From Bombella intestini (lineage in GTDB: Bacteria; Pseudomonadota; Alphaproteobacteria; Acetobacterales; Acetobacteraceae): a DNA stretch of 64,000 nt. The DNA lies in contig NZ_JATM01000004.1 of assembly GCF_002003665.1 (NCBI RefSeq), forward strand, positions 1 through 64,000, given 5' to 3'. How positions within the stretch are numbered: position 1 is the stretch's first letter; the number at the start of each line of letters is the position of its first letter. Below, in pieces: positions 19,272 through 52,847 of this stretch. A program made the translations under genes and the position numbers. The notes under the pieces were generated by a model, which had not been told where the DNA came from, did not search any database, and saw nothing but the letters and a program-made list of their open reading frames with translations.

Positions 19272-19346
19272 TGGAGCGGGCGAAGGGATTCGAACCCTCG
19301 ACCCCAACCTTGGCAAGGTTGTGCTCTACCCCTGAGCTACGCCCGC
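19272..19346 (-). tRNA. tRNA-Gly (GCC), copy 1
   Basis: A 75-base tRNA with CCA encoded. Acceptor GCGGGCG/CGCCCGC, anticodon loop TTGCCAA giving GCC, T arm GAGGGTTCGAATCCCTT. The sequence is identical to the neighbouring copy. Confidence 0.96.
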
Positions 19347-19384: not shown

Positions 19385-19459
19385 TGGAGCGGGCGAAGGG
19401 ATTCGAACCCTCGACCCCAACCTTGGCAAGGTTGTGCTCTACCCCTGAGCTACGCCCGC
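19385..19459 (-). tRNA. tRNA-Gly (GCC), copy 2
   Basis: Identical to the copy 113 bases away, in the same orientation with CCA encoded. As the upstream member on the minus strand it is probably co-transcribed with copy 1. Confidence 0.96.
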
Positions 19460-32407: not shown

Positions 32408-32553
32408 GACTGTCTCTCCCGCTCGTTTGGCTATGCCGGACTATCCATAAGAAGCGGCCGGTACAACTCTCCGCTTCCCTTGGCCACTGATGTAGCCAAT
32501 GTGACCACATCTGTCACCAATGACATAAGGGGACATAAGAGGATGCCATTCCC

Positions 32554-32582
32554 TTGCCATCTCAAGCAAAGCTGCCTATATC
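32554..32582 (+). promoter_or_regulatory. Promoter of ssrA (tmRNA)
   Basis: TTGCCA (32554-32559) and TATATC (32577-32582) are separated by 17 bases, a good sigma-70-type match. They lie directly before the tmRNA precursor, with transcription expected to begin near 32589. Confidence 0.6.
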
Positions 32583-32586
32583 TCTC

Positions 32587-32890
32587 GGTGCCGGAGGTTT
32601 CGACCTTGGCTATGGCGATAAACGGTAGATGAAATAAGTGTTGTGGACCCGGGGGCAGTGCCCGGCGTCTCCACCATCAGCCTTACGGGCTGACGCTATG
32701 GGGACGAAACAGGCTCGACACGCATGGTAAAGATCTACTTTTTGCCCGGTATTGTTCCGCCGTCATCGGGCTGACTTTACAAGTGCCAACGATAACTCTG
32801 AGGTGCTCGCTGTTGCTGCATAAGCGATAAGCGCGGTTCGGGGGGTGCACCGGGCAACAGAAGCCCCCCCACCTGTTTCTTTTCTGAAAC
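32587..32890 (+). ncRNA. ssrA: Two-piece (circularly permuted) tmRNA
   Basis: Trans-translation RNA in the permuted alphaproteobacterial arrangement. The acceptor piece comes first and ends ...CGTCTCC-A-CCA (CCA 32674-32676) after a T arm CCGGG/CCCGG. A short spacer with hairpin TCAGCC/GGGCTGA follows. The coding piece begins GGGGACG (32700), whose seven bases pair with CGTCTCC to form the acceptor stem. CGACAC (32716-32721) pairs with GTGTTG (32638-32643) as helix P2. The tag frame at 32785-32823 reads ANDNSEVLAVAA then TAA. The outer ends are approximate. No protein gene is supported between thyX and sspB. Confidence 0.93.
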
Positions 32891-50534: not shown

Positions 50535-50566
50535 TTGACGATTTTACTTTCTGCAAGCAGTATAGT
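50535..50566 (+). promoter_or_regulatory. Candidate promoter of argD-argF
   Basis: TTGACG (50535-50540) and TATAGT (50561-50566) are good hexamers, but the 20-base spacing is longer than optimal. If used, transcription would start near 50573 and give a leader of about 120 bases. Confidence 0.45.
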
Positions 50567-50572
50567 CTGGCA

Positions 50573-50694
50573 GTTTCCCCCTGATCTGAAAGTCCAGACA
50601 GGGGTGTTTTCCGTTGAAAGCATGGGGAAACACCATGAAACGGAACGCAGGCTGCATATCGTCAGTTTTTAGATCAGGAACGCGTCCACAATGA
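50573..50694 (+). promoter_or_regulatory. Structured leader with 19-codon upstream frame before argD
   Basis: Two hairpins lie end to end. H1 pairs CCCCTG-A-TCTG (50578-50588) with CAGACAGGGG (50595-50604), one bulged A, loop AAAGTC. H2 pairs TGTTTTCC (50605-50612) with GGGAAACA (50625-50632) through one G-T pair. The GGGGA in the H2 3' arm is also a ribosome binding site for an ATG at 50635. That frame encodes 19 residues (MKRNAGCISSVFRSGTRPQ) and its TGA overlaps the argD ATG as ATGA. Confidence 0.5.
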
Positions 50695-51866
50695 TCGCCT
50701 CCATCATGCCGAACTATAAACGCTTTGACCTCGCCTTTGAGCATGGCGAAGGACTCTGGCTTACCGGCACGGATGGGCGACGTTATCTGGATTTCGGGGC
50801 TGGTATTGCCGTTTCTTCCCTTGGGCACAGCCACCCAGCCCTTGTAAAGGCCATCACCGAACAGGCGAAGAAGGTCATCCACGTCTCCAATCTCTATCAG
50901 GTACCGCAGGCTAAGGCCCTGGCGGATATTCTGGTCGCCAACAGCTTTGCGGATTCCGTCCTCTTCTGCAATTCAGGTGCGGAAGCCAATGAAGGACTCA
51001 TCAAGCTGATCCGGCGGGCACAATATAAGAACGGCCATCCCGAACGCACACGGATCATCTGCTTCAACAACGCCTTTCATGGCCGGACATTGGCCACCAT
51101 CTCCGCCACAGGCAACCCGGCTTACCTGGAAGGCTTCGGCACACCGGTGGACGGGTTCGACCATGTGCCTTTCAACGATATTGAAGCCGTCCGGGCTGCT
51201 GTGACAGATCAGACAGCCGGTATCCTGCTTGAACCTGTACAGGGAGAAAGTGGCATCCGGGTCGCAGACCCTGCCTTCCTGCGTGATCTGCGTGCTCTGT
51301 GCGATAAAAAAGGACTCTACCTAGGCATTGATGAGGTCCAAAGTGGCATGGGCCGTACCGGTACGCTCTTTGCTTTCGAACAGGCAGGGATTACGCCGGA
51401 TGTCGTATCCTCCGCCAAGGGCATTGGGGGCGGCTTCCCTCTTGGGGCTGTACTCGCCCGGGAGACGCTGGCTAAGCACCTTACACCCGGAACACATGGT
51501 ACTACCTATGGCGGCAATCCACTGGCCTGCTCCGCCGGGCTGGCCGTGCTGAAAGAAATTCTGGCCCCCGGTTTTCTGGACCATGTCCGCAAAACCGGTG
51601 AGGCTTTCGGGGCCATGCTCCAGACATGCGTGACGAACTACCCAACCATCTTTGAAGAAGCCCGTGGGATCGGGCTGATGCGGGGGCTGCGCTGCCGCAT
51701 CCCTGTCGGGGAGGTGCTAGAAGCTGTCATGGCCGAGGGTCTTCTGGCCATCGGCGCAGGGGACAATGTGCTGCGTCTGGTTCCCCCCCTCATCGCAACC
51801 GAGGCTGACTGTCAGGAAGCCTCCACCCGCATCGGGCGTGCTGCTCACGCCCTTGCCAACAAGTAA
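50691..51866 (+). CDS. argD: Acetylornithine aminotransferase
   Basis: Class III PLP aminotransferase of arginine synthesis, 391 residues. GTDGRRYLDFGAGIAV, NSGAEANEGLIKLIRR, AFHGRTL, GIDEVQSGMGRTGTLFAFE and SSAKGIGGGFPLGAV with the PLP lysine are present. It may also act on succinyl-diaminopimelate as in other bacteria. The ATG has only a weakly placed AGGA, and it overlaps the stop of a 19-codon upstream frame, so coupled translation is likely. argF follows after 12 bases. Confidence 0.96.
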   Translation: MIASIMPNYKRFDLAFEHGEGLWLTGTDGRRYLDFGAGIAVSSLGHSHPALVKAITEQAKKVIHVSNLYQVPQAKALADILVANSFADSVLFCNSGAEANEGLIKLIRRAQYKNGHPERTRIICFNNAFHGRTLATISATGNPAYLEGFGTPVDGFDHVPFNDIEAVRAAVTDQTAGILLEPVQGESGIRVADPAFLRDLRALCDKKGLYLGIDEVQSGMGRTGTLFAFEQAGITPDVVSSAKGIGGGFPLGAVLARETLAKHLTPGTHGTTYGGNPLACSAGLAVLKEILAPGFLDHVRKTGEAFGAMLQTCVTNYPTIFEEARGIGLMRGLRCRIPVGEVLEAVMAEGLLAIGAGDNVLRLVPPLIATEADCQEASTRIGRAAHALANK

Positions 51867-51878
51867 GGAGACACCTGC

Positions 51879-52847
51879 GTGAGCACCACCAAGGCCTCAT
51901 CGCCCCGTCACTTTCTGGACATCAAAGATCACTCCACAGAGACCTTACGGCACATCCTCGCACTCGCCGCACGGGTTAAGACGCTCCAACAGGGCCGTAA
52001 GCACCCACTCTGCCCCGGTCTGCCGCTAGCAGGTCGTGCATTGGGGCTGATGATGTCCCGTCCTTCCACCCGCACCCGTGTCTCTTTCGAAGTCGGAATG
52101 AAGCAGCTGGGCGGGACCGTTAATGTCCTGTCCCCCTCCGAAATGCAGCTGGGCCGTGGAGAAACTGTTGCCGATACAGCCCGCGTCCTTTCTCGCTTTC
52201 TGGATGTTATCACGCTGCGTACCGGTACAGATGCCAACCTACGGGAACTGGCCCGCTGGAGCAGCGTGCCCGTCATCAATGGGCTAACGCCCGTCTCCCA
52301 CCCCGTGCAAATTCTGGCTGATATCCTCACCTTTGAGGAACATCGTGGCCCGATTACCGGCAAAAAACTCGCATGGATCGGCGACGGTAACAATGTTGCC
52401 ACCTCCATGATCGAAGCAGCAGCTCGTTTGGGCTTCTCCCTGCATCTGGCCACACCAGAAGGCGAGTTCACTCCCTCCGAAACCGCCGTGAACTGGGCTC
52501 GGGAGAATGGCGGTGACATCCGGCTGACACACGACCCCAAAGAAGCCGCAGAAGGCGCGGATGCTGTCATCACGGATACATGGGTTAGCATGGGGGACAA
52601 GGATGCGGAGAAACGCCTCAAAATTTTCCGCCCCTACCATGTGGATGAAGCCCTCATGGCTCTGGCATCTCCGCAGGCCCTGTTCATGCACTGCCTGCCT
52701 GCCCATATAGGGGAGGAAGTTAGCGAAGCCGTGTTCGAAAGCCCGGCTTCCGTTGTGTTTGATGAAGCAGAAAACCGCCTGCACGCCCAGAAGGGGCTCC
52801 TGCTCTGGTGCATGGAAAAGGATGACCTTTCAGCCTATCAGGGTTAA
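51879..52847 (+). CDS. argF: Ornithine carbamoyltransferase
   Basis: Condenses ornithine and carbamoyl phosphate to citrulline. The 322-residue protein has the carbamoyl-phosphate motif SRPSTRTRVSFE, the ornithine-binding SMG-type segment WVSMGDKD and HCLPAH. The start is GTG with AAGGAG eight bases upstream. It is co-transcribed with argD. A hairpin without a T tract lies between argF and hslO, so read-through into hslO is possible. Confidence 0.97.
   Translation: MSTTKASSPRHFLDIKDHSTETLRHILALAARVKTLQQGRKHPLCPGLPLAGRALGLMMSRPSTRTRVSFEVGMKQLGGTVNVLSPSEMQLGRGETVADTARVLSRFLDVITLRTGTDANLRELARWSSVPVINGLTPVSHPVQILADILTFEEHRGPITGKKLAWIGDGNNVATSMIEAAARLGFSLHLATPEGEFTPSETAVNWARENGGDIRLTHDPKEAAEGADAVITDTWVSMGDKDAEKRLKIFRPYHVDEALMALASPQALFMHCLPAHIGEEVSEAVFESPASVVFDEAENRLHAQKGLLLWCMEKDDLSAYQG

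Follow-up and report, generated by a model that had tools for sequence, protein, structure and literature searches.

The window, by which we mean the whole 64,000-nt stretch of the Bombella intestini contig NZ_JATM01000004.1 that was analyzed, carries two neighbouring reading frames of 391 and 322 amino acids. The first has one strong relative in each of the 11 genomes of the genus and is presumably argD, coding for acetylornithine aminotransferase; among the matches listed, the closest named ArgD was that of Saccharibacter sp. EH611 (78% identical). The second frame, located downstream, we take to be an argF-like gene. Elsewhere in the window, Rfam identified an alphaproteobacterial (permuted) tmRNA gene at 32550-32871 and two neighbouring tRNA genes with equal scores on the minus strand (19275-19346 and 19388-19459).

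The region upstream from argD forms a leader with predicted helices P1, P2 and P3. Its parts, with the basis of each assignment in brackets, are listed below. Types A (the form of the window's genus), B and C are leader forms named in this analysis and assigned by eye.

50535-50540, + strand: TTGACG, -35 element of the putative argD promoter (TTGAC-to-P1 spacing in congeners and type C)
50558-50563, + strand: putative -10 element CAGTAT after a 17-nt spacer, with the predicted +1 at about 50570 (read off the genus leaders)
50570-50575, + strand: 5' strand of P1, at the predicted +1 (fold of the element; partner arrangements in 5 species)
50578-50604, + strand: P2, a GC-rich hairpin with one bulged A, identical to the hairpin described earlier as H1 (folding energy against shuffles)
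50605-50615, + strand: U-rich strand, which is the 5' strand of P3 and a possible terminator tract (folds; T counts after P2)
50639-50649, + strand: 3' strand of P3, AACGGAA and then GCA past one bulge (folds; partner-swap test)
50650-50655, + strand: 3' strand of P1, GGCTGC, closing the three-way junction (fold of the element; partner arrangements)
50635-50694, + strand: 19-codon frame, probably not a gene (not conserved)
50676-50688, + strand: AGGAACGCGTCCA, purine stretch and box ahead of the argD start (11 genus leaders, with small changes)
50691-51866, + strand: argD, 391-aa frame (relatives in the genus)
51879-52847, + strand: argF-like gene, 322-aa frame (reading frame)

Promoter, start codon and the 19-codon frame

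Counted between the first bases of TTGAC and of P1, the distance was 33-35 nt in all 11 congeners and 34-39 nt in all 25 type-C elements, a set that includes one contig-end copy and near-duplicates. This near-fixed distance places the beginning of P1 at the predicted transcription start or right beside it. A consensus promoter scan of the window reported no promoter at the argD leader. The available part of a Gluconobacter start-site study (PMC5756330) contained nothing on argD, nor the word "arginine", and neither "arginine" nor "argD" occurred in the available part of PMC6191907. A control comparison with other TTGAC promoters of the window comprised two cases only, too few to draw on, and gave -36.9 kcal/mol with the 5' end paired at 0.75 for argD, and -23.0 kcal/mol and 0.38 for the other.

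The preliminary description had drawn attention to a 19-codon frame located in the leader. The frame is indeed present, from the ATG at 50635 to the TGA at 50692-50694; it contains the three Arg codons reported (CGG, AGA and CGT) and its TGA overlaps the argD ATG at 50691 as ATGA. Leaders of 11 species of the genus, including the window, were compared in order to follow this frame. A homologous start ATG was found in two of them only, the window and its nearest relative G003 (leader 97% identical). In the leader of G009 (92% identical) the ATG is replaced by ATC, and G001 has no in-phase start and carries a stop ten codons ahead of the overlap.

In-phase ATG frames lying inside the predicted transcript were found in 5 of the 11 species (L002, L003, L004, L005 and L008), with variable starts and lengths. 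No such frame was found in the other six (L006, L007, L009, L010, L011 and L012): the ATG of L007 is located upstream of the predicted +1, and L009, L010, L011 and L012 have in-phase GTG or TTG codons. Starts are not shared across the genus, and the 19-codon frame is thus no conserved part of the leader. The overlapping stop is explained by the start of argD itself: the gene begins with ATGATC in 11/11 species, and every one of them thereby carries a TGA in the other phase. As judged from these comparisons, the 19-codon frame is probably incidental and not a gene.

The same leaders did not bear out the proposal that argD, with its own ribosome binding site poorly placed, is translated only when the upstream frame is. 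A purine stretch (AGGA or GGGA) is kept ahead of argD in 11/11 species, which implies that argD need not borrow ribosomes from an upstream frame; in the window it is AGGA at 50676-50679, 11 nt ahead of the ATG.

Predicted fold of the leader in the genus

The two hairpins described earlier, H1 (50578-50604) and H2 (strands 50605-50612 and 50624-50632), can be recognized in the sequence. Folded alone, H1 reached -15.2 kcal/mol, equalled by 2 of 200 shuffles, and H2 (50604-50632) reached -9.0 kcal/mol, equalled by 3 of 200. The z score of both hairpins folded together (50571-50634) was -2.90 (3/200 shuffles). The whole leader was only mildly more stable than its shuffles (z scores of -1.62, -1.36 and -1.76).

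When the element was folded with ends chosen by us, a choice that favours the junction, the minimum-energy fold was a three-way junction of P1, P2 and P3 in 11/11 congeners. When the leader was folded from 35 nt past TTGAC to the start codon, the junction was obtained in 9/11; L004 and L011 folded otherwise. In the window, P1 pairs 50570-50575 with 50650-50655, and P3 pairs 50605-50615 with 50639-50649. In folds of the whole leader, the expected number of P1 pairs dropped to 2.1-3.1 in L002, L004, L005 and L011.

The strands of P1 change their letters from species to species and keep their pairing, as in GCAG/CTGC, ATAGC/GCTAT, CTATCC/GGATAG and GAGCT/GGCTC. For 5 of the 11 species, the own P1 partners were the best among all 120 possible arrangements. 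An unrestricted version of the swap test, in which the partner could lie anywhere in the downstream region, found own P1 partners no better than swapped ones (p 0.25). The P3 strands preferred their own partner over swapped ones (p 0.0004) in a test of 9 of the 11 species, the near-duplicates L003 and L012 being left out; the own partner was the single best in 3/9. For P2, 10 pairs are kept in the genus, none of them with a change on both sides, and RNAalifold run on a MAFFT alignment of the genus recovered P2 alone, with no two-sided change.

A folded leader ahead of argD, as previously proposed, is supported. Two features had been suggested for comparison among relatives: two-sided stem changes that keep pairing, which were found, and conservation of the small frame, which was not.

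H2 and P3 (50605-50649) compete for the same U-rich strand; H2 is predicted to form first, with P3 taking over once the RNA extends past about 50650. The starts and ends of the window leader RNA were shifted and pair probabilities were computed; 35 combinations of ends reached at least 50655. The mean pair probability of H2 was 0-0.3 in 32 of these 35, the exceptions being RNAs starting at 50571, 50572 or 50574 and ending at 50693 (0.62-0.74). Outside these three exceptions, the probability of the P3 core was 0.64-0.92 in RNA reaching at least 50655. H2 was dominant in RNA ending at 50634 (0.60-0.97), shared with P3 for most starts in RNA ending at 50648, and was also present in the minimum-energy fold of two fragments starting at 50571 and reaching 50694 or 50710. 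H2 was rejected as a lasting helix, as it is mostly displaced by P3, some RNA ends excepted.

With a start at 50570 and an end at or beyond 50655, the probability of P1 in the window was 0.73-0.95. In RNA reaching at least 50693 it was 0.01-0.40 for starts at 50565-50569, and at most 0.01 for starts at 50571-50574. The exact start would therefore decide whether P1 forms in the window species, and in these calculations P3 is more robust than P1 to the choice of RNA ends.

Leader types in relatives of the genus

Type B is represented by 24 hand-delimited leaders, with Komagataeibacter and Acetobacter as named members; here the U-rich strand past P2 can form pairs with the 5' end. In the 18 of these leaders that were permuted (L041, L054, L057, L064, L065 and L101, near-duplicates among them, were left out), the own P1 partner was preferred over swapped ones (p 0.0012) and was the single best in 1/18.

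Type C is a two-helix form (P1-P2) of 49 nt located ahead of argD; its only named record is L102, a metagenome-assembled genome listed as Asaia bogorensis. Model R1, for which seven argD leaders served as training set, was searched against 200 genomes of the family and matched 26 places in 25 of them. Twenty of the 26 places were directly ahead of argD, in the 7 training genomes and in 13 others. Five places were not at argD (E 8.4e-4 to 0.0068). The remaining one, L187, is a contig-end place on a piece that lacks argD, and was taken as a copy of L205, with which it shares score and genome. Covariation in the type-C alignment A8 (25 matches, 22 distinct), which was fitted to the model, leans towards it and still contains the weak row L189:96-153, was 0.374, compared with 0.191 for shuffled alignments (0/500) and at most 0.168 for slid partners.

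Alignment A9 retained 21 of the 25 matches, leaving out the duplicates L186, L073 and L094 and the weak match L189:96-153. The unpaired AA ahead of P2 was almost invariant (19 and 21 of 21 type-C elements), and so was the loop A-N-G-G (A in 19, G in 20 and G in 20 of 21). A model built from 21 type-C elements (R2) was searched against 395 genomes of the order and matched 23 places in 22 genomes: 22 were ahead of argD and the other was the same contig-end place. Eighteen of the 22 matched genomes belonged to the training set, and the matches in the 4 untrained genomes were all at argD. R2 gave no match in the window's genus among the 395 genomes. L063, L069 and L078 show a further form of argD leader, with the loop AAGG and a long P1, which was not captured by R2.

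A third model (R3) was built from the 11 genus leaders. Its best match was at argD in 11/11 congeners (51.7-95.9 bits), these being the training sequences themselves, and the next match anywhere reached 27.3 bits. No argD leader outside the genus was found with R3 among 120 genomes of the family; weak matches occurred in six genomes outside the genus (E 9e-4 to 0.045), none of them at the known argD places.

MAFFT alignments across the leader forms were poor. As judged from the gene, the position and the topology, types A, B and C may form one family; core letters are not common to the window's type and type C. Not every leader shows such a form. With the promoter picked by script, 10 of the 39 leaders L060-L098 were at most 56 nt long and several others had no clear P1-P2, and two Commensalibacter leaders look unstructured. 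Leaders with no clear P1-P2, kept outside the swap tests, include L035, L037, L060, L062, L070-L072, L076 and L080-L083, as well as L086-L089, L091-L093, L095, L096, L098, L105 and L129. L042 and L049, which were not placed at the start codon by the script, were left out.

Possible modes of action of the leader

The most likely reading, which we put at just short of even, is that of a cis-acting regulatory leader setting the output of argD-argF. The computed support consists of the fold, the co-variation of its strands, the placement at argD and the fixed distance from TTGAC. In the proposed mechanism, the argD(-argF) mRNA would start with a structured leader, the 5' end of which would pair through P1 with a downstream strand and enclose P2, the GC-rich hairpin; P3, a third helix, would complete the three-way junction in the window's genus. 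The leader might then set the amount of argD mRNA that is completed, kept or translated, acting through a bound metabolite, a bound protein or the fold itself.

A serious rival, on balance unlikely, is that the fold merely protects the mRNA, the sealed 5' end resisting 5'-initiated decay with nothing being sensed. Such a role would agree with the position of P1, which begins at the predicted +1 or immediately beside it in 36/36 elements counted, and with the persistence of a paired 5' end while helices swap letters and type between genera. It leaves unexplained, however, the near-invariant AA and ANGG loop of the 21 type-C elements, and does not account for the finding of the element at argD by the models; in the window, moreover, whether the 5' end is paired depends on exactly where the RNA starts and stops.

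The readout of a regulatory leader would most likely be transcriptional in types A and B: P2, together with the U-rich strand, would serve as a weak terminator or pause site beside the promoter. In 39 hand-delimited leaders of these two types, the mean T content was 6.5 per 12 nt past P2 and 3.2 per 12 nt over the final 60 nt ahead of the ATG. The weak second matches of R3 in the genus that were inspected lay beside other genes and were hairpins resembling terminators; two had a similar tail. Together, the U-richness past P2 and these matches make a transcriptional readout plausible in types A and B. One such hairpin (L231 and L220, about position 1501; G003:C1:443634-443704 and G000:C6:190302-190371) has a stem and a CCGTTGG tail that resemble P2 of argD and its U-rich strand; the frame beside the L231/L220 hairpin is presumably enolase-like.

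The same two observations could also mean that P2 is a plain intrinsic terminator right after the promoter, resulting in constitutive attenuation or a tiny RNA, with the other helices as by-products. We regard this as distinctly improbable. Type C retains P1 and P2 but has no U-tract, the U-run of the genus leaders begins two bases past the P2 stem, and no antiterminator strand was found by eye in the genus leaders and their folds; besides, a terminator scan of the window reported no site at the argD leader, and the strands of P1 and P3 co-vary.

It is less probable again, and must be regarded as speculative, that the leaders represent a new riboswitch class for arginine or a precursor (ornithine, acetylornithine or citrulline), with subtypes ranging from the two-helix form with the ANGG tetraloop to the three-way junction of the window.

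The box (A/G)GGAACGCGTCCA, located ahead of the argD ATG (50676-50688), is near-identical in the 11 genus leaders, with changes in G010 and G002. A switch of the U-rich strand between P3 and this box, hiding the ribosome site, was considered, as GGGAACGC is complementary to GCGUUUUCC and the minimum-energy fold of the whole L011 leader pairs the U-rich strand with the box. It was rejected as very improbable: of 39 leaders listed, 22 were permuted and own partners did no better than swapped ones (p 0.91), and the pairing fell below 0.05 against shuffles in only 1 of the 8 genus leaders tested.

The least credible reading is the original one, in which argD is translated only through coupling to the 19-codon frame with H2 hiding its ribosome site: the frame and the overlap exist in the window, and H2 is predicted to form in nascent RNA and with some RNA ends, but the start is homologous in 2/11 species only, in 6/11 the predicted transcript lacks an ATG frame in phase, P3 mostly displaces H2 and argD retains its own purine stretch.

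The regulatory leader that we favour was compared with known systems. Rfam gave no match in the window leader at the gathering threshold and, on 20 loci with E up to 5, two matches far below the cut-offs, neither of them in a leader; a known Rfam family for the argD leader was thus rejected. In agreement with the preliminary description, the literature searched, which did not include most subscription journals, yielded neither an argD leader of this form nor any paper on argD leaders in this group of bacteria.

Metabolite riboswitches include a kind with a P1 helix at the 5' end of the transcript. The argD leader resembles them in having a 5' helix that closes a hairpin or a three-way junction, in being gene-specific and, in type C, in having some invariant unpaired bases; it differs in having no Rfam match and in core letters that are not the same in the window's type and in type C. 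Leader-peptide attenuators occur in amino-acid operons and likewise place hairpins ahead of a biosynthetic gene, and the argD leader has, in its types A and B, a hairpin resembling a terminator; unlike the attenuators, the argD leader shows no conserved frame, and no antiterminator could be found by eye. The ompA leader of E. coli carries a 5' stem-loop that stabilises the mRNA. The argD leader shares with it a 5' end placed in a helix, whereas the models used find the argD element at argD only, and type C has invariant loop bases.

Control by ArgR concerns the same pathway, but ArgR is a DNA-binding protein, and its family (PF01316) was found in none of 40 genomes searched, the window's genome included, in a search that detected the control in 9/14. 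According to the available part of PMC5343134, many gammaproteobacteria share a conserved ArgR, which is absent from other classes.

The argD leader appears to be an undescribed folded RNA element on an arginine gene, the letters of which change in relatives while the fold is preserved. To our knowledge, few studies have dealt with the control of arginine synthesis in alphaproteobacteria that have no ArgR. With its gene-specific and covarying RNA leader, argD of the acetic acid bacteria and their relatives offers a defined object for tests.
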